Positions 8,431 through 15,327 of a DNA stretch of 16,125 bases are shown piece by piece. Origin of the DNA: Eubacterium sp. (GTDB lineage: Bacteria; Bacillota; Clostridia; Oscillospirales; Acutalibacteraceae); contig JAILGO010000095.1 in assembly GCA_024696725.1 (NCBI GenBank), positions 1 through 16,125 of the forward strand. Reading direction: 5' to 3'. Numbering within the stretch: position 1 is the stretch's first letter; the number at the start of each line of letters is the position of its first letter. Under the pieces are notes generated by a model, which worked only from the letters and a program-made list of their open reading frames with translations, was not told the origin of the DNA and did no database searches. Made by a program: the position numbers and the translations under genes.

Positions 8431-9012
8431 CTTTAATAATTTATATATTTCCGTAATCAGATACGTTGCCGAGGCTGCGCTCAGAAAATATCTTCGTTTA
8501 ACGGTGAAAGCCGTCAGAAGCACTGTCACGGCGGAGAAGATAATAATCCTGTGGGAATTGTCCGAGAGAAGAGTGAAATAATAATCGTTTCTGCTCTGAA
8601 ACCTTACCGTTGAGGCTATGCTTCCCGTTCGGTTCTTTTCCGGCGTAAGAACAAGCGTGAGCGTTTCTCCCTTAAGCACCTCCCAAACCGGTATAAATAC
8701 CGTGTTACTGCCCGCACCGCTTTCGGTCAGTATCTTATTCCTCGTGAACGCGAATATTTCAAGGTCGGTTTTATTAATTATAAGATATGTGCCTTCGGGG
8801 TATTTCTTTTTCAGCTTAAGGTTAACGGTCAGCGCTCTGTCACTTTTAAACTTATGTAATTCAATCTTTTTCCCGCTGTCTGTATACCATCTGTTAGCCG
8901 TTTCGTACGCCGGCTCGCTTTTAAAGCCGTAAAATGCCGCGGACTCTAACGCTACCGTGAACACGATTACCGATAAAACCGCGGCGGCTTTTTTTATCAT
9001 TATCAAAACCAT
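8422..9012 (-). CDS. Small membrane-anchored protein of unknown function (receptor-like ectodomain)
   Basis: I do not recognise this 196-residue protein with confidence. It has an N-terminal hydrophobic segment (about 10-27) that could be a signal anchor. A beta-rich, probably extracytoplasmic domain of about 125 residues follows (28-153), including FIPVWEVLKGETLTLVLTP, and then two C-terminal hydrophobic segments (about 154-170 and 176-192). The ectodomain followed by membrane helices recalls the front half of 7TMR-DISM-type receptors, but the remaining helices and any kinase or GGDEF output are absent. The start is unclear: ATG codons at 9012 and 9000 are both in frame and neither has a ribosome-binding site. 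A TATAAT at 9023-9018 is so close that the mRNA may be leaderless. It is upstream of, and possibly co-transcribed with, the pyruvyl transferase gene. Confidence 0.7.
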   Translation of the reverse strand: MVLIMIKKAAAVLSVIVFTVALESAAFYGFKSEPAYETANRWYTDSGKKIELHKFKSDRALTVNLKLKKKYPEGTYLIINKTDLEIFAFTRNKILTESGAGSNTVFIPVWEVLKGETLTLVLTPEKNRTGSIASTVRFQSRNDYYFTLLSDNSHRIIIFSAVTVLLTAFTVKRRYFLSAASATYLITEIYKLLKLQ

Positions 9013-9017
9013 ATTAG

Positions 9018-9023
9018 ATTATA
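9018..9023 (-). promoter_or_regulatory. Candidate -10 box of the small membrane-protein gene
   Basis: A consensus TATAAT reads on the minus strand at 9023-9018. It predicts transcription starting at about the first base of the ATG at 9012. No good -35 hexamer stands at the proper distance. Confidence 0.35.
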
Positions 9024-9038
9024 TTCAAATTTATTGAA
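9024..9038. promoter_or_regulatory. Dyad in the divergent promoter region (candidate operator)
   Basis: TTCAA (9024-9028) and TTGAA (9034-9038) are inverted around a 5-base centre. The right arm overlaps the -35 box of the plus-strand operon and the left arm abuts the minus-strand -10 box, so one bound protein could affect both directions. The arms are short and AT-rich, so chance is possible. Confidence 0.3.
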
Positions 9039-9062
9039 AAGAATTATAGTTTTTGTTATAAT
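9034..9062 (+). promoter_or_regulatory. Promoter of the CooC/dehydratase/ACS-like operon
   Basis: TTGAAA (9034-9039), a 17-base spacer and consensus TATAAT (9057-9062) are preceded by TG at 9054-9055, forming an extended -10. The predicted start near 9069 leaves a leader of about 24 bases before the ATG at 9093. The next terminator on this strand is at 14329. Confidence 0.8.
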
Positions 9063-9092
9063 GATACTATACGGAAAAAAGGAGAGATGTTT

Positions 9093-9857
9093 ATGAACTC
9101 TGAAGCTAAGATTATCGCGCTTGCGGGAAAGGGAGGCGTCGGAAAAACCTCGGTTTCCGCGGCAATAGTAAAACTGCTGAGCGAGCGTTATCCCGATCAA
9201 CGGATTCTTGCGATTGACGCAGACCCTGCAATCGGACTTTCGACCGCTCTCGGAATTGATGTTAAGCTGACGATTGACGATATCCGTAAGGAGATTGTTG
9301 AAACCGTTGAGGACGGAAATACAAAGGCGGCGATTGAGCTTCTCGGCGACGCGAGGTATAAGCTCTTCGACGCGCTCGTTGAAACCGACGGCTTTGCTTT
9401 TATCGCTGTCGGAAGACCCGAAAGCGCGGGCTGCTACTGTAAAATCAATTCGTATCTTAAAGATGTTATTAGCCTTCTTTCCGCCGAGTTTGATTATGTA
9501 GTAATCGACGGCGAGGCGGGTATTGAACAGATTAACCGAAGGGTTATGGAAAAGGTTACCCACCTTATTCTCGTAACCGACGCGAGCAAAAAGGGAACTC
9601 AGGTTATCTCGACTATTAAAAGCGTTGCCGACGAGCTTGTTATGTATGAAAAGCTCGGAGCCGTAGTTAACCGAATCCCCGACGAAAGCGTAATACCCTA
9701 TATTGATACCGGCGATATTCCCGTGCTTGCTTATATTGCTAACGACGGTAATCTTGCCGTTTACGATATTCAGGGAAAAAGTATTCTTGAGCTTCCCGAC
9801 GACAGTAATGTTGTAAAGGGCGCTGAGGAAGCGCTGAAAAAGCTTGATATTTTATAA
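9093..9857 (+). CDS. CooC/AcsF-type P-loop ATPase (nickel-enzyme maturation)
   Basis: A 254-residue MinD/SIMIBI-class ATPase resembling CooC and AcsF, which bind nickel or zinc and load nickel into CO dehydrogenase or acetyl-CoA synthase. The deviant Walker A GKGGVGKT is at 12-19, followed by IDADPAIGLSTALG (41-54) and VVIDGEAGIEQ (136-146), which matches the switch region of CooC. The key clue is GRPESAGCYCKI (107-118): its CxC motif (C114, C116) lies almost where CooC1 carries its metal-binding pair (C112, C114). The start at 9093 is preferred over the ATG at 9087 because GGAGAG (9081-9086) would abut the latter. It opens the operon and is followed after 18 bases by dehydratase-type genes. 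Its usual clients are absent; the ACS-like protein at the operon end is the obvious candidate. Confidence 0.88.
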   Translation: MNSEAKIIALAGKGGVGKTSVSAAIVKLLSERYPDQRILAIDADPAIGLSTALGIDVKLTIDDIRKEIVETVEDGNTKAAIELLGDARYKLFDALVETDGFAFIAVGRPESAGCYCKINSYLKDVISLLSAEFDYVVIDGEAGIEQINRRVMEKVTHLILVTDASKKGTQVISTIKSVADELVMYEKLGAVVNRIPDESVIPYIDTGDIPVLAYIANDGNLAVYDIQGKSILELPDDSNVVKGAEEALKKLDIL

Positions 9858-9875
9858 ATTCCACGGGGTGTATTT

Positions 9876-11075
9876 ATGAAGGATTTAAAGTATTTGTATG
9901 AATTTGAAAATCTTTTGCAGGAGGCTAATAACGAGCTCGTGCAAAAGGCAAAGGCTGACGGAAAGCTCTGCCTCGGTTATACCTGTTACCATATTCCCGA
10001 GGTTCTTCTTAATCTTCCCGGCTGCTTTTCGACGAGACTGCGCGCGCCGCGTACGGGCTCGCTCGATATTTCAACCTACTATATGAGCTCGTTTCTCTGC
10101 GGCTTTTCAAAGGCGATTGTCGAAAGGGGAATAGAGGGCGGATATCAGCATCTTGACGCCCTGTTCGGAAGCGAAACCTGTTCACAGATGAACAGAGCGT
10201 ACGAGCATTTTGAGCTTCTCAATTTAGTCGATAACGAAAAGTTCTTTGTTACGATTTCCGATATTCCGTTTAAGGTTGAGTCTCACACCGTAAGACATTA
10301 CGTTCAGCAGATGCAGGCTAACGTCCTCGATAAGCTCAGCGAGATATACGGCGTCGATACGGGAGAGGAGGCGTTAAGAAAAGCAGTTGAGGAGCATAAC
10401 GAGGTGTGCCGCCTGATAACCGAAATCGGCGAATACAGAAAAGAGGAAAACCCGCGTATTACGGGCTATGAATATCACATATTAAATCTTATTACATATT
10501 GCTGTCCGAAATATCTTATTATTGATAAGCTCAGAGAAACAGCCGAGGAGCTTAAAACAAGAGTTCCCGACGAAAAGAAGAATTACAGGGCAAAGATAGT
10601 CGTAGTCGGCTCCGAAATGGACGACCCCGATTTCACGAAGCTTATCGAAGACAGCGGCGCTCTCGTTGTTGCCGACCGCTTCTGCTTCGGCGCTCTTCCC
10701 GGAAGAGAGGAGATAAAGCTCACCGACGAGAGTAACGTCCTTGAACAGATTATTCTTCACTATATGAAGACCTGTCAGTGTCCGCGCTATATGGCGCAGG
10801 ATAAGGTGCTGAGTAGACGCGAATACGTCCGTCAGCTTGTTGAGGACTATCACGCCGACGGCGTGCTTTACGAGCAGCTTAAATTCTGTGAATACTGGGG
10901 TTATGAAAGAGCTCTCGCTTCACACGTCGTAACTAACGATTTCGGTATACCGTCCGTCTGCGTTGACCGTCAGTATACCGCGAGCGCCTCGGGACAGCTC
11001 AGAACGAGAGTACAGGCGTTCGTTGAAAGTCTTGAAATTAAGAAAATCCAGAAGGGAAAGGAGGGTGCGAAATGA
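9876..11075 (+). CDS. 2-hydroxyacyl-CoA dehydratase/benzoyl-CoA reductase-type iron-sulfur subunit (HgdB-like)
   Basis: A 399-residue member of the HgdB/HgdA/BcrBC/double-cubane-protein superfamily. In known members such subunits hold a [4Fe-4S] cluster that receives one electron at very low potential from an ATP-driven activator. Known members dehydrate 2-hydroxyacyl-CoA, reduce aromatic CoA esters or reduce small molecules. The superfamily cysteine pattern is visible: C37 in GYTCYHIPEVL, C102 in SETCSQMNRAYE and C338 in QLKFCEYWGYE. Additional cysteines include C32, C50, C75, C209, C210, C270, C300 and C302. The start has GGGGTG upstream. The stop overlaps the next ATG (ATGA), so translation of the two subunits is probably coupled. 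The substrate cannot be assigned; no CoA-transferase or acyl-CoA dehydrogenase that would indicate amino-acid fermentation is in the window. Confidence 0.85.
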   Translation: MKDLKYLYEFENLLQEANNELVQKAKADGKLCLGYTCYHIPEVLLNLPGCFSTRLRAPRTGSLDISTYYMSSFLCGFSKAIVERGIEGGYQHLDALFGSETCSQMNRAYEHFELLNLVDNEKFFVTISDIPFKVESHTVRHYVQQMQANVLDKLSEIYGVDTGEEALRKAVEEHNEVCRLITEIGEYRKEENPRITGYEYHILNLITYCCPKYLIIDKLRETAEELKTRVPDEKKNYRAKIVVVGSEMDDPDFTKLIEDSGALVVADRFCFGALPGREEIKLTDESNVLEQIILHYMKTCQCPRYMAQDKVLSRREYVRQLVEDYHADGVLYEQLKFCEYWGYERALASHVVTNDFGIPSVCVDRQYTASASGQLRTRVQAFVESLEIKKIQKGKEGAK

Positions 11076-12643
11076 GCCTGAAGGACAGTTTAAAAAAGCT
11101 ATGGAGAAACGAGCCGAAAAACCTCGGTAAGCTTCATAAGGATAAAACGGGTATTCTCAGGCACAGAGAATGGCGAGGAATTTCCGACACCCTTTATGAC
11201 TATTACCGCTGGCTTGTTACATGGAAAGATATGATAGTAATGGTCGGGAAGGCTCCCGTATCGTCAGTTAAGGGTATATGGAGCTATCGCTGGATGGCGA
11301 GCTATCTCAGCGCTCCCGCGTGGGTTGACCGTCATACCGAGGGCTTAAGAGGACCTCAGCTGCGTATAACTCACCTTCACATGAATATGCTCGTTAAGCC
11401 GACCACCGATTTAATTAACTTCCTGCTTGCTAACGATAAGCATTTCCATAAAAATCCGAAGTGGGCGGATAAAACGGTTAACGTCGACGAAATATTTTCC
11501 TCGGAGTTTATCGCGGGCTTCCCGAATTTGAGGGATAACCACGTTACGACGATTCCGATTTTCCTTACCTCAATGGTAGACCAGAATATTACCGCGCCTT
11601 ACCTCGATATTACTGAGGGCTACGGCGTTCCCGCGGACGTATGTCCGCTTCCGTCGGCTGAGGCGGGCGTCGCAATAAATGACGACTATCCGCTCGTCGG
11701 CGTCTGCTCGCTGACCTGTAATATGCCATGCGACGGCTCAATAATGAACTCGTCGTACATTGACAGAAGGTTTAATATTCCGACCCACGTTATTAACGTT
11801 CCGCTTCGCTATAACGGCGAGGACGTACAGCAGTACGCGGTTGACGAGGTTAAGTCGGCTATTAAATTTGTTGAGGAACAGACGGGCGAAAAGTGGGACT
11901 GGGACGCCTTCTTCTCGGCAATGAAAACATATAATAAGCAGACCGAGTATGAAATTCAGAAATGGGATGTAAACAAGACCGACTATCCTCAGATGACGGG
12001 CGCTACCTTCTGGCTTTACAGACTTTTCTATTTCCATATCTCAGGCGGTATGGATAAGCGCTTCCTAAAGGTTGACGAAAAGGTTAACCGTATTATGATG
12101 AAAGCGTACGAAAACCGTGTTAAATGCTCTAAGGAAATGCGCCACAGAGCTATCGTGTGGTCCTGTCCCGCAAACTACTATACAAGTCTTGCGAACTGGC
12201 TTGAAAACTGTTGGGGCGTAAACGTAGTTATGGATATGGAAACCATGATTTCCTACTATATTTACGATACCGAGGATAAAGAAAAATCGCTTGCGACCTT
12301 TGCAAAAACGCTACAGCGTACAACGATGAGGAAGCATACAAAAGGCGGATATCAGAACGTTGTCGACGAGCTCTGGCGTATCGTCGAGGAGTTTAACGCC
12401 GATATGGTCATTATGTACGACCAGATTTCATGTAAGGGAATGGACGGACTTAACGGTATATTCGACGACCAGGCGAGAGAACGCAACGTTCACTTTATCT
12501 GGGTACCTCAGGACCTTATGGACCCCCGTACAATTTCAAGACGCGATATGCGCGAAAACATTAATAAGTATATGACGACGGTGCTTCAGGAGGAGCCTGT
12601 TGACCCGACTCTCGTTGATTTTGACGACACTTTAGCTTGGTAG
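11072..12643 (+). CDS. Enlarged, divergent 2-hydroxyacyl-CoA dehydratase-like subunit (HgdA-like)
   Basis: A 523-residue second subunit of the same superfamily, longer than the usual 400-480. The N-terminal 90 or so residues are basic and rich in tryptophan and tyrosine and have no counterpart I recognise. Candidate ligands are C191 in ADVCPLPSAEAG, a tight cluster C212-x3-C216-x3-C220 in VCSLTCNMPC, and C454 in DQISCKGMDG; further cysteines are C352, C365 and C380. The arrangement of one N-terminal cysteine, one central group and one C-terminal SCK tract fits the superfamily, but the triple cluster is unusual. The strong site AAAGGAGGG and the 4-base overlap with the upstream gene indicate a stoichiometric partner of that subunit. 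A reductase using the cluster for chemistry other than dehydration is a fair alternative. Confidence 0.78.
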   Translation: MSLKDSLKKLWRNEPKNLGKLHKDKTGILRHREWRGISDTLYDYYRWLVTWKDMIVMVGKAPVSSVKGIWSYRWMASYLSAPAWVDRHTEGLRGPQLRITHLHMNMLVKPTTDLINFLLANDKHFHKNPKWADKTVNVDEIFSSEFIAGFPNLRDNHVTTIPIFLTSMVDQNITAPYLDITEGYGVPADVCPLPSAEAGVAINDDYPLVGVCSLTCNMPCDGSIMNSSYIDRRFNIPTHVINVPLRYNGEDVQQYAVDEVKSAIKFVEEQTGEKWDWDAFFSAMKTYNKQTEYEIQKWDVNKTDYPQMTGATFWLYRLFYFHISGGMDKRFLKVDEKVNRIMMKAYENRVKCSKEMRHRAIVWSCPANYYTSLANWLENCWGVNVVMDMETMISYYIYDTEDKEKSLATFAKTLQRTTMRKHTKGGYQNVVDELWRIVEEFNADMVIMYDQISCKGMDGLNGIFDDQARERNVHFIWVPQDLMDPRTISRRDMRENINKYMTTVLQEEPVDPTLVDFDDTLAW

Positions 12644-12659
12644 TAAAGGAGATATGAAA

Positions 12660-13454
12660 ATGAAATATTTCGGCGGATGCGACGTAGGCTCAACCTATAC
12701 CAAATGCGTTATTCTTGACGAAAACGGAAAAATGGTTGCCAACGTAACAAACAGAAGTAAAATCAATCCCGTTCAGTCGGCTGAAATCGCTCTTGACGAC
12801 GCGGTTGCGAAGGTTGACGGACTTAACAGCGCAAAGGAATTAACCTATCTTATCGGTACGGGCTACGGACGAAATAAGGTACCCTTTGCCGATGAAAATA
12901 TCAGCGAGATTTCCTGTCACGCAATGGGCGTTCACGTAACCAATCCGAGCGTTAAAGCTATTATAGATATCGGCGGTCAGGACGTAAAGGGTATAGCAAT
13001 AGATACCGACGGCACGGTTAAAAACTTCGCTATGAACGATAAATGCGCCGCGGGTACGGGACGCTTTTTTGAGGCGATGGCAAGCGCGTTTGAAATGTCG
13101 CTTCCCGAGTTTTCGAAGCTTTCTCTCAAGGCGAAAAACACTATCCCGATTACCGCACAGTGTACGGTATTTGCGGAGAGCGAGGTTATCTCTCTTGTAG
13201 GCGAGGGAAAGCCAATGGACGAAATTGCCGCAGGCATTGAGCTTGCGGTAGCTAAGCGTTGCTTCGTAATGGCTAAAAAAGCCGGCGCAACCGACAGCAT
13301 TACCCTTACGGGCGGCTGCGCTAAAAACGACGGTCTTAAGCAGGCTATTGAAAAGGTGCTTAAAATTAAGGTCGTCGACCTTGATATCGACCCTCAGCTT
13401 ATGGGCGCTCTCGGCGCTGCTGAATATGCAAGACAGAAAGGAATGGCGAAATAA
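12660..13454 (+). CDS. HgdC-type ATP-dependent activator (archerase) of the BadF/BadG family
   Basis: A 264-residue ASKHA-fold ATPase. In the family it is a homodimer bridging one [4Fe-4S] cluster, and it drives one electron to the dehydratase or reductase subunits with ATP hydrolysis. The phosphate loops are GCDVGSTYTK (6-15) and IDIGGQDVKGI (102-112). The two cluster cysteines are C129 in NDKCAAGTGRFFE and C168 in AQCTVFAESEV, close to C127 and C166 of Acidaminococcus HgdC. The adenosine motif is LTGGCAKNDGL (216-226). Length matches the family. The ATG at 12660 lies eight bases after AAAGGAG; an in-frame ATG at 12654 is only two bases from it and is less likely. It lies 16 bases after the enlarged subunit, so it is the evident activator of this pair. 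Confidence 0.93.
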   Translation: MKYFGGCDVGSTYTKCVILDENGKMVANVTNRSKINPVQSAEIALDDAVAKVDGLNSAKELTYLIGTGYGRNKVPFADENISEISCHAMGVHVTNPSVKAIIDIGGQDVKGIAIDTDGTVKNFAMNDKCAAGTGRFFEAMASAFEMSLPEFSKLSLKAKNTIPITAQCTVFAESEVISLVGEGKPMDEIAAGIELAVAKRCFVMAKKAGATDSITLTGGCAKNDGLKQAIEKVLKIKVVDLDIDPQLMGALGAAEYARQKGMAK

Positions 13455-13455
13455 G

Positions 13456-13620
13456 ATGACTGCTTTAAAAATAATCTTAATAATCCTTGCGGTGCTTGTC
13501 GGGCTGTTTCTTCTCACCTTCGGAATTTACTGGTTCAACGGCGATATGAAGCTTATCCGCTTCGTTTACGAAAAGCTTCAGCCTCACTATGATAATATAG
13601 AAAAGGACAGAAAGCTGTAA
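13456..13620 (+). CDS. 54-residue single-pass membrane peptide
   Basis: A small protein with one strongly hydrophobic N-terminal segment (about 4-25, LKIILIILAVLVGLFLLTFG). A short, charged C-terminal tail of about 29 residues (26-54) ends in EKDRKL. No family is recognised. It is tightly packed: its ATG begins one base after the activator stop codon (TAAGATG), and its own stop shares a base with the next start (TAATG). This argues that it is a real gene in the operon rather than a chance frame. It could anchor the complex or the ACS-like protein to the membrane, or act as a small subunit; both are inference. Confidence 0.75.
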   Translation: MTALKIILIILAVLVGLFLLTFGIYWFNGDMKLIRFVYEKLQPHYDNIEKDRKL

Positions 13621-14306
13621 TGAACTTTTTTGACAGCCTTATTGAAAGAACCGACGGGCTTCTCTCTTCCTTTGAAAAGAAGGATTACCCCCTTTGCGAA
13701 GCGTGGAACGACTTAGGTAAAAATACCGTCGTTCTTAAGCGCGACGAGGCGTACGAGCTCGACGGTATCGGCTTTAACCTTGTTACCTCAAAGGATATCG
13801 GCGAAAGCGGTATAACCGTAATCGGGAGAGATTTAGGCGATATAGACGGAAATACTAAATTTGCGCGTATTTCGCTTATAAAAATGAAGCCTTATGAGGA
13901 CGAGCAGAGCGCGTACGGTGTTATCCGCAAGGTCGAGTACCTTAAATATCATTATTACCCCGAGGGCTTTATGGTGCGTACGGTTTCTACCTCTCATAAA
14001 GAAAACGTGCGCGTAACCCGCGACGCGCTCAAAAACGGAATAACCTTTCAGAAGGTCGGAAGCCTGCTTGTATCAAGGTATCTTGAAAACCCTTCTGTTT
14101 TAAGCGCAAGGGTAATATACGTTACCGAGCCTGCGGCAGATTATAACGCACTTGCGGAGATTGCCGATAAGAATTATGCTGTTACCGAAGCGTTGAATCA
14201 TATTATGGAAAACCTTCCGCTTGACTGCTCTGCGTGTAATCTCAAGCCCGTCTGCGACGAGGTAGAGGGTATGAGAGAGCTTCATTTTAAAAACAGCGGT
14301 ATGTAA
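13620..14306 (+). CDS. Acetyl-CoA synthase (CdhC/AcsB)-like central-domain protein
   Basis: A 228-residue protein that, by eye, aligns with the middle of acetyl-CoA synthase, around residues 340-520 of the Moorella enzyme. Matching tracts are FNLVTSKDIGESGITVIGRD (52-71), which parallels FELVRTVSES...IEVIGPD, and RVTRDALKNGITFQKVGSLL (131-150), which parallels RVSKDAVAKGFRFKNYGEIL. A terminal cysteine group C203-x2-C206-x5-C212 stands where the enzyme has its first three A-cluster region cysteines (CVLC...C). The protein stops soon after, so the following ACS domain with the remaining two A-cluster cysteines is missing, as is the N-terminal CO dehydrogenase-binding domain. It may keep a CoA-binding or metal-binding role; catalysis as a full synthase is unlikely. 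TAATG overlap couples it to the membrane peptide, and a terminator closes the operon. The homology rests on recalled sequence and needs a profile search. Confidence 0.62.
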   Translation: MNFFDSLIERTDGLLSSFEKKDYPLCEAWNDLGKNTVVLKRDEAYELDGIGFNLVTSKDIGESGITVIGRDLGDIDGNTKFARISLIKMKPYEDEQSAYGVIRKVEYLKYHYYPEGFMVRTVSTSHKENVRVTRDALKNGITFQKVGSLLVSRYLENPSVLSARVIYVTEPAADYNALAEIADKNYAVTEALNHIMENLPLDCSACNLKPVCDEVEGMRELHFKNSGM

Positions 14307-14328
14307 ATTATTAAAATTATGTAAAAAC

Positions 14329-14377
14329 AGTCCGTTTTTCTTTGACACAGAAGGAAAAACGGACTATTATTTTTTTG
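14329..14377 (+). terminator. Rho-independent terminator closing the ACS-like operon
   Basis: A perfect 12-base stem, AGTCCGTTTTTC (14329-14340) with GAAAAACGGACT (14354-14365), has a 13-base loop and is followed by ATTATTTTTTT. It begins 23 bases after the stop of the ACS-like gene. Confidence 0.93.
14342..14370 (+). promoter_or_regulatory. Promoter of the phospholipase-family gene, nested in the terminator
   Basis: Consensus TTGACA (14342-14347) forms part of the terminator loop. It is followed after 17 bases by TATTAT (14365-14370). The predicted start near 14377 coincides with the GAGGTGA ribosome-binding site, leaving a leader of only about 12 bases. Confidence 0.65.
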
Positions 14378-14388
14378 AGGTGATAAGT

Positions 14389-15327
14389 ATGCCTGCATTT
14401 GCAACGCACTATCTTTTTTTAGAGGAAATAAGAAACGAGCTTGAGGAAAAGCTCGGCTTTACGCTTGACTTTAAGGTTGCGGGAGTCGGAACTCAGGGAC
14501 CCGATATTTTTATCTTCCACAGGCTTTGGCCGCCCGTTACGATTTATAAATCGCTTTTCGGAACCGCCTCTTTAATTCACAGAAGCAAGCCTGACAAGCT
14601 TTTTGAGGCGTTTGCCGAGTATCTGAAAATCAGCGAAAAGCCTGACGTCGCGCGTTCCTATATCTACGGTTTTATTCTGCATTATGCACTTGACCGTAAC
14701 TGCCATCCTTATGTCTATGCTTTTCAGAATCAGATAACCGAAGCTGATAAGCATATCCACCCGCTTGCGGCGCATAATCGTGTTGAGCACGCGGTAGATA
14801 CCTATCTTCTTTACAACAGAAAGGGAATATACCCTCCGTCGCTCTTCAATCCCGAGGAAACCTTTACCGACGATAAGGAAAAGCTCGGCGAAATCGCTAA
14901 GCTTATGCGCTTTGTGATTAAACGTTGCTACGGTAAGGACGTAGCGGAGTCCGAGATAGTTAAAGCGGTAACCGATACCGCTAAGCTTCAGGCAACGCTT
15001 TCGGATAAGAAGGGAAACGCTACTAAGCTCGCCCATCTTATTGAAACGCCGCTTGGTCCCGTATCGCATTATTTTAAGCTTTCCGCCTCAATTAAGCCTA
15101 AGGATTTGGATTCAGCTCAGAAATACGCTAACGAGCGTCATAGGGAGTGGACCTCGCCTTACAGTAATGTAACGAGTACGGAAAGCTTTGAAGAGCTGTT
15201 CGAAAAGGCAAAGCCGGACGCGATAGCCCTGCTTAAAGGCTTTAACAAAATCCTCTGCGGTAAAACGACAGGCTTTGAGGTTACGGAAAATATATCGTTC
15301 CTGACGGGACTTGAGGTAACTGAATAA
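14389..15327 (+). CDS. Zinc-dependent phospholipase C-family protein
   Basis: A 312-residue protein of the Zn_dep_PLPC family (PF00882), related to bacterial phospholipase C but lacking a secretion signal, so its substrate in this form is unknown. Visible family features are MPAFATHYLF at the N-terminus (H7), TQGPDIF (35-41, D39), IHR (H64), the tract LHYALDRNCHPY (97-108; H98, D102, H106), and AHNRVEHAVDTYL (128-140; H129, E133, D137). These histidines and acidic residues are the expected metal ligands. Start choice: GAGGTGA (14377-14383) places the ATG at 14389 at a proper distance; an in-frame GTG at 14380 is part of that site. It has its own promoter and no clear terminator before the next gene. 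Family assignment is good, catalytic role inferred. Confidence 0.85.
   Translation: MPAFATHYLFLEEIRNELEEKLGFTLDFKVAGVGTQGPDIFIFHRLWPPVTIYKSLFGTASLIHRSKPDKLFEAFAEYLKISEKPDVARSYIYGFILHYALDRNCHPYVYAFQNQITEADKHIHPLAAHNRVEHAVDTYLLYNRKGIYPPSLFNPEETFTDDKEKLGEIAKLMRFVIKRCYGKDVAESEIVKAVTDTAKLQATLSDKKGNATKLAHLIETPLGPVSHYFKLSASIKPKDLDSAQKYANERHREWTSPYSNVTSTESFEELFEKAKPDAIALLKGFNKILCGKTTGFEVTENISFLTGLEVTE

Follow-up and report, generated by a model that had tools for sequence, protein, structure and literature searches.

Why are an ATPase of the AcsF/CooC nickel-insertion type and a small relative of acetyl-CoA synthase (ACS) encoded together with a reductase of the benzoyl-CoA reductase/2-hydroxyacyl-CoA dehydratase (BCR/HAD) family? 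The question is raised by six genes, denoted g1 to g6, on contig JAILGO010000095.1 of a Eubacterium sp. assembly (GCA_024696725.1); positions refer to the whole stretch of 16,125 nucleotides that was analysed, denoted the window. The genes encode, in this order, a P-loop ATPase, two HGD-D proteins, an acyl-CoA dehydratase activase, a membrane micropeptide, and a stand-alone relative of the ACS middle (A2) domain, here called mini-ACS. They are one conserved unit and not specific to a strain, and AcsF-like ATPases are repeatedly associated with HGD-D pairs. By its parts, the system would work like an ATP-driven BCR/HAD-type reductase to which service genes akin to AcsF and ACS have been added. 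The explanation we favour, with our confidence evenly poised, is a conserved, self-contained, ATP-driven reductase of this family that has its own genes for the service of a metal site.

Gene order and conservation

The six tightly packed genes are all located on the + strand and span 9087-14306 between a promoter-like and a terminator-like site. The first gene, g1 (9087..9857), encodes an AcsF/CooC-type P-loop ATPase of 256 aa, or of 254 aa from the start at 9093, which is the likelier one since the Shine-Dalgarno-like AGGAGAG (9080-9086) abuts 9087. It is followed by g2 (9876..11075; HGD-D protein of the BzdN/double-cubane type, 399 aa), g3 (11072..12643; HGD-D protein, 523 aa, with about 170 residues ahead of the HGD-D match), g4 (12654..13454; HgdC-type activase, 266 aa), g5 (13456..13620; single-span membrane micropeptide, 54 aa, within a longer open reading frame (ORF) of its frame), and g6 (13620..14306; mini-ACS, 228 aa). 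The genes g2 and g3 overlap in an ATGA at 11072, g5 and g6 in a TAATG at 13618. The promoter-like site (9034..9062, + strand) consists of TTGAAA-17-TATAAT with an extended -10 TG and has 11 of 12 consensus matches; the terminator-like hairpin (14329..14365, + strand) has 15 pairs, a 7-base loop and a T-rich tail on its 3' side. Both sites are consensus matches only, since similar sites are also frequent in shuffled sequence: a scan of both strands over 8500-15000 yields 18 promoter-like and 12 terminator-like sites, versus 8.7 and 7.3 in shuffles, respectively. An initial annotation of the window had described the six genes, one promoter, one terminator and the two overlaps, all of which are found at their places, and had argued for a functional unit.

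The latter proposal is borne out by conservation. A search for relatives of g6 gives 726 at E <= 0.001, the first 120 being listed, and a profile built from 15 g6 relatives was run against 238 candidate stretches from a species-genome collection and identifies 200 relatives, of which the best 80 were read. The titles of these 80 loci mostly denote metagenome-assembled genomes from gut and rumen (Clostridia, Oscillospiraceae, Lachnospiraceae, Erysipelotrichaceae, Mogibacterium, and others). The count of gene order is limited to the 52 loci with 5.3 kb or more of sequence upstream of g6: the order g1-g2-g3-g4-g6 is present in 47 of them and is hence not unique to one strain. The five exceptions are L010 (g1-g6), L078 (g1-g4-g6), and L070, L072 and L077 (g6 alone). 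The genomes of L010, L070 and L077 have g3 matches at other places, and the genome of L078 has four HGD-D matches. Of the 74 loci showing both g4 and g6, 73 encode a membrane peptide in the interval, as judged by a hydropathy cut-off; the 74th has a similar peptide that falls below the cut-off.

The genes also co-occur at the level of genomes. Among 245 genomes sampled from the class, the g6 profile matches seven, consisting of five with a short g6 and two with longer ACS ORFs, and the g3 profile at 1e-20 matches exactly the five genomes with the short g6. As the genes are linked, this co-occurrence reflects inheritance as a unit, not independent selection. An operon-type g1 (54-100% identity) accompanies them in four of the five. 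The distribution of the operon is patchy, as g6 is found in three of 120 genomes of the window's family; within the phylum (398 genomes, searched again with a wider g6 profile) a short-ORF g6 occurs in two genomes, that of the window (G000) and G405, the other matches being located in ORFs of 412-814 aa. A pattern search with a single sequence found no g6 relative in viral contigs, and none of 72,556 plasmid records matches g3 at 1e-20. The patchy spread would suit an explanation by chance neighbourhood or by a strain-specific fusion of two operons. We nevertheless regard this explanation as very improbable: it is contradicted by the order kept in the 47 loci, in records whose titles name Clostridia, Lachnospiraceae and Erysipelotrichaceae alike, by the shared occurrence of g3 and g6, and by a locus from outside the class (L132) in which the genes are rearranged with the same kinds of partner.

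A dependence on carbon monoxide dehydrogenase (CODH) and ACS was considered and is unsupported. The ACS A-cluster domain (PF19436) is present in one of the five class genomes with a short g6, G184, the sole carrier of a true ACS among them. The window genome (1.82 Mb, 93% complete by estimate) has no match to the Prismane/CODH family, no match to PF19436, and no CdhC match besides g6; the absence of CODH and full ACS that the initial annotation reported for the operon stood and extends to the genome.

Other neighbours of the operon are less regular. A methyltransferase (15 of 85 loci) and an FMN oxidoreductase (9 of 85) were tried as operon parts and dropped as too patchy; neighbour rows that are antisense ORFs picked by length are excluded from the counts. 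A small SAM-methyltransferase-type gene, whose Pfam assignment was checked for one locus, is located 3' of g6 on the same strand in L012, L013, L019, L020, L024, L032, L033, L040, L041 and L043. In 20 of the 80 loci (L004-L083), less than 2 kb separates g6 from the end of its contig, and in 15 of the 20 the only gene visible ahead of g6 is g4. The g4 genes are mostly 81-97% identical across loci, and assemblies may break near them.

The reductase core

The proteins encoded by g2 and g3 match HGD-D (306 and 154 bits, respectively), and g4 matches BcrAD_BadFG (191 bits) and exceeds the cut-off of TIGR00241 (213.3 versus 125.4). Two cysteines of g4, C131 and C170, are invariant, a pattern that we take to be the one expected of HgdC-type cluster ligands. 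The closest solved relatives of g2 are BzdN and the double-cubane cluster protein (DCCP), followed by HadC. Nine cysteines of g2 are kept in close relatives (51 sequences). A broad comparison of chosen copies (for g2, 10 from operons, 8 paralogues, and L132; for g3, 12 from operons, 7 paralogues, and L132) leaves only six invariant cysteines in g2 (C37, C75, C102, C270, C302, C338) and three in g3 (C191, C220, C454), all of which are kept in L165 as well. In alignments read by eye, every one of the six g2 cysteines has a cysteine counterpart in both BzdN and DCCP, and two have none in HadC. According to the available portion of PMC11971306, the BCR/HAD enzymes described there have iron-sulfur clusters supplied by an ATP-driven activator; BzdN and DCCP bind an [8Fe-9S] cluster, in BzdN via six cysteines, and in BzdO an aqua-[4Fe-4S] cluster is held by Cys95, Cys128 and Cys380. 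The pair g2-g3 would have this BzdN-BzdO cluster layout, and the six and three conserved cysteines give the core the look of a bzd-type class I benzoyl-CoA reductase.

Judged by the tests applied, g2-g3 is nevertheless not a benzoyl-CoA reductase, since none of the NCBIfam equivalog models of this enzyme (BzdN, O, Q) is over cut-off for the window genes, and since S223 of g3 occupies the position of the catalytic His131 of BzdO, three residues past the cluster ligand Cys128 (available portion of PMC11971306). The corresponding residue is an asparagine in L132 and an alanine in L165. The equivalog cut-offs of HadB/HadC are not reached either (g2, 86.5 versus 700; g3, 22.1 versus 750), and g2 stays below the cut-off of the double-cubane model NF040772 (144.4 versus 350 bits).

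Each known system resembles the operon in part. In 2-hydroxyacyl-CoA dehydratases (HadBCI, HgdABC) a pair of HGD-D subunits is served by one activase, as in the core of the operon, in which g4 probably forms a homodimeric activase; they differ in that HadC has four of the six aligned cysteines of g2, and in that the operon has extra genes and no model over cut-off. DCCP (6eno/7yyl) and its reductase share the six aligned cysteines and the activase partner, but the operon has two different HGD-D genes. The benzoyl-CoA reductase BzdNOPQ shares the HGD-D pair with six plus three cysteines and the BcrAD_BadFG activase (PMC11971306, in the portion available). It differs by having two activase genes, as opposed to one in the window (L132 and L165 have two each), and the operon adds the AcsF-type ATPase, the micropeptide, and the mini-ACS.

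The ATPase and its likelier client

The best solved relative of g1 is CooC (3kje, 5.9e-16), and the CooC-type ATPase named in the initial annotation is real. In common with the AcsF/CooC ATPases, g1 has the P-loop GKGGVGKT and a CxC motif. The latter (C116-Y-C118 counted from 9087; 9432..9440, + strand) aligns to the CYC of CooC 3kje and is invariant in 52 of 52 copies. Outside the operon type, the closest relative in the class sample is the L165 ATPase (40%), and the next relatives include three ATPases directly beside true ACS ORFs (L155-L157, 32-36% identity). A CooC/AcsF tree of 34 sequences with midpoint root places 12 CooC-labelled rows on one branch (100/100; 11 of the 12 adjoin a roughly 630-aa ORF judged by eye to be CODH, the exception being L169). 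The 11 operon g1 group together (98/98) and are joined by the ATPases of L132 and L165 (99/98), both long branches. The AcsF-labelled rows lie on the side of the operon g1 and do not form one group (two changes); three of the nine directly adjoin an ACS ORF, and the remainder either lie at another place in an ACS cluster or received the label because they score higher against g1. By this placement g1 is AcsF-like, yet it differs from the AcsF/CooC ATPases in belonging to a clade of its own and in being encoded with HGD-D reductase genes.

These data bear on a plain explanation of the operon, namely an ordinary two-component BCR/HAD-type enzyme with nickel-free accessories, in which g1 would be a maturation ATPase for Fe-S or other sites and g6 a scaffold or a CoA-binding protein. 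The core architecture equals that of known BCR/HAD enzymes, and CxC alone is no proof of nickel. The unchanged CxC and the position of g1 on the AcsF side of the tree speak against the explanation, as do the HypA- and HypB-type genes beside one g2-g3 pair (L129), and we consider it unlikely, if worth keeping in mind.

Two other ARRANGEMENTS, L132 and L165, pair an AcsF-like ATPase with HGD-D pairs and activases. L132 belongs to G405, a genome of the same phylum and another class, and its g6 has relatives under the titles Firmicutes and Dethiobacteria. The locus consists of acyl-CoA dehydrogenases, a 594-aa protein, two HGD-D proteins, two activases, a mini-ACS with CxxCx5C, and an AcsF-like ATPase with CYC. 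L165/L170, in G184, consists of a CoA-transferase, an AcsF-like ATPase (CFC), two HGD-D proteins and two activases, one of which exceeds the BzdQ cut-off, as well as an acyl-CoA ligase, a thiolase, a hydroxyacyl-CoA dehydrogenase and an enoyl-CoA hydratase; no mini-ACS is located beside the ATPase, HGD-D and activase genes of L165. By synteny and tree, the CooC-like gene is not always in the company of unrelated neighbours. The AcsF-like ATPase, the HGD-D pair and the activase are common to all three arrangements, and the mini-ACS adjoins in two of the three. The shared set makes the reductase, rather than the mini-ACS, the likelier client of the ATPase, and the acyl-CoA genes of L165/L170 point to an acyl-CoA substrate and to the same client.

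Two features of these loci are recorded separately. The 594-aa protein (L132 14190-15971), for which no family is over cut-off, heads the HGD-D, activase and mini-ACS genes of G405. Between the HGD-D pair and the activases of the BCR-like cluster in G184 (L165 12729-14074), there are two transposase-like ORFs, named by eye.

A further line of evidence is the number of core genes per genome. The window genome has g2-g3 as its single HGD-D pair and no further HGD-D, and G246 and G248 contain three and six g3-like genes, respectively, several with a partner g2. Each of the two genomes has one g1 in the stretches read, located in the main operon. In L129 2939-9927 (G246) a HypB-type GTPase, a large FAD/Fe-S oxidoreductase and HypA-type genes directly precede a second g2-g3 pair; a similar oxidoreductase is found with HypA in L130, and one beside a g2-g3 pair in L124. 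Some pairs (L123-L130; G246, G248) lie near GntR/TetR-type regulators and AOR-like or molybdopterin-oxidoreductase-like genes, named by eye from their N-termini, as if each pair had a substrate of its own. The isr operon (isoprene reductase) of Acetobacterium wieringae, as described in the available portion of PMC10134865, also combines redox enzyme genes with nickel chaperones; its oxidoreductase and chaperones (HypA/HypB) differ from the present set, and only the neighbourhoods in L129 and L130 resemble it.

The mini-ACS and the proposed mechanism

The last gene had been described in the initial annotation as an ACS-like fragment. The likeness is real and the fragment is not: g6 is a complete conserved gene. 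Its match to the ACS middle domain (CdhC) covers residues 41-190 approximately (13740..14189, + strand), with a Pfam score of 25.1 versus a gathering threshold of 24 (53.9 for the L132 homologue). The 15-row g6 profile matches solved ACS at 2.3e-7, versus only 0.03 for the single sequence; a wider 23-row profile matches 24 of 24 distinct ACS ORFs (1e-22 to 1.2e-11, these being E-values for that small set), and its HMM-HMM comparison with ACS gives 4.5e-18. The middle domain is followed by C203-x2-C206-x5-C212 (14226..14255, + strand), invariant in 81 of 81 sequences and also in 23 of 23 rows chosen across the g6 subfamilies. The motif is placed much as the A-cluster Fe-S cysteines are in ACS. 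A local HMM-HMM alignment running through the CxxC had suggested these cysteines as ACS A-cluster ligands, an assignment weakened by controls: with cysteines masked or replaced, the alignment of g6 and ACS ends where the middle domain ends, and the reversed g6 C-terminus still pairs its CxxC with that of ACS. H222 was rejected as a fourth ligand; it is kept in 81 of 81 close sequences, but is replaced by arginine in 16 and by lysine in 1 of the 23 rows. In the 15-row profile alignment, tryptophan 418 of ACS, presumably part of the CoA site, aligns with an arginine in g6, and CoA binding by g6 is therefore unsupported. The hydrophobic 54-aa peptide g5 has no Pfam match.

A mini-ACS related to ACS in this way could itself be the catalyst, a nickel-bearing protein that handles CoA or C1 units and is loaded by g1, with g2-g3-g4 only supplying low-potential electrons. 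The initial annotation had similarly cast the reductase as the servant of a separate metal- or C1-handling protein. In favour of this explanation, g1 is nearest to AcsF-type ATPases, the three of L155-L157 among them; its partner in the operon is an ACS relative with an invariant CxxCx5C; L010 has g1 directly before g6, and L078 has g1-g4-g6 without g2-g3; and the L165 genome carries a mini-ACS elsewhere. On the other hand, g6 differs from CdhC/AcsB in its length of 228 aa and in having no A-cluster domain beyond the cysteine motif, PF19436 and CODH are without a match in the window genome, the ATPase of L165 adjoins an HGD-D pair and activases and no mini-ACS, and the g2-g3 pairs multiply in G246 and G248 with g1 seen once in each. 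Moreover, g2-g3 have a full BzdN/BzdO-type cysteine set of their own. We judge a catalytic mini-ACS to be improbable, and the servant role of the reductase is unsupported in the form proposed. In view of the cysteine set, the multiplied pairs and the arrangement of L165, the reductase is more likely serviced by the ATPase, and perhaps by the mini-ACS, than the reverse.

In the self-contained reductase that we favour, ferredoxin would reduce the cluster of the g4 activase dimer, and ATP hydrolysis would drive an electron of very low potential onto an [8Fe-9S] double-cubane-type cluster of g2. The electron would move on to an open-site [4Fe-4S] cluster of g3, where the substrate, most likely an acyl-CoA, would be reduced. 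The AcsF-type g1 with its intact CxC would load a metal, which by analogy to AcsF is most likely nickel, or would mature a cluster of the complex in some other way; g6, with its ACS middle domain and three-cysteine motif, may act as the docking partner of g1, as a metal carrier, or as a third subunit, and g5 would tether the complex to the membrane.

Several observations weigh against this proposal. The genome of L072 has g6 and no HGD-D match, and G007 has g3 and g6 and no g1 match, its contig stopping inside g3. The serine at the His131 position of g3 departs from BzdO. The remainder of the A-cluster domain is missing from g6, and the equation of its CxxC with the first A-cluster cysteines of ACS is suggestive and derives solely from the cysteines. 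Among the scanned window genes there are no acyl-CoA genes besides the operon's own. The AcsF placement of g1 is partly circular, the labels having been set in part by score to g1. Finally, the sole g6 match of G184 is located elsewhere, in a g1-g2-g3-g4-g6 cluster (L098), and the genome has two true ACS matches in addition; L165 therefore cannot show that the ATPase works without a mini-ACS, the mini-ACS or the true ACS could be served in trans, and the argument on the client is not strong. Because of this mini-ACS at another place in the L165 genome and the score-set labels, the favoured explanation is given no more than even odds, and the two main alternatives slightly more weight.

A more specific version, which we put forward tentatively and consider doubtful as it stands, is a nickel-containing ATP-driven reductase. 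The AcsF-type ATPase and the mini-ACS would place nickel within or adjacent to the Fe-S clusters in a BCR-type enzyme of the double-cubane kind, which would be tethered to the membrane and operate at extreme negative potential in gut bacteria without CODH/ACS; in some genomes several g2-g3 pairs would share one service set for different substrates. A nickel-insertase-type ATPase subfamily that travels with BCR/HAD enzymes, to which the operon type adds a stand-alone ACS domain, would, if a metal is involved, denote a new class of metallo-reductase for gut anaerobes and the use of a piece of ACS outside carbon fixation. It would also be a new setting for the double cubane, whose catalytic function is called unclear in the available portion of PMC11971306. 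Among the papers listed by searches of the open-licence PMC literature, we recognised none as describing this gene set; the available portions of PMC7306483 and PMC12176620 do not describe it.

Downstream of the terminator-like hairpin, the window contains a gene of the zinc-dependent phospholipase C family (14380-15327), a copy of which with 81% identity is also located 3' of g6 in L004.

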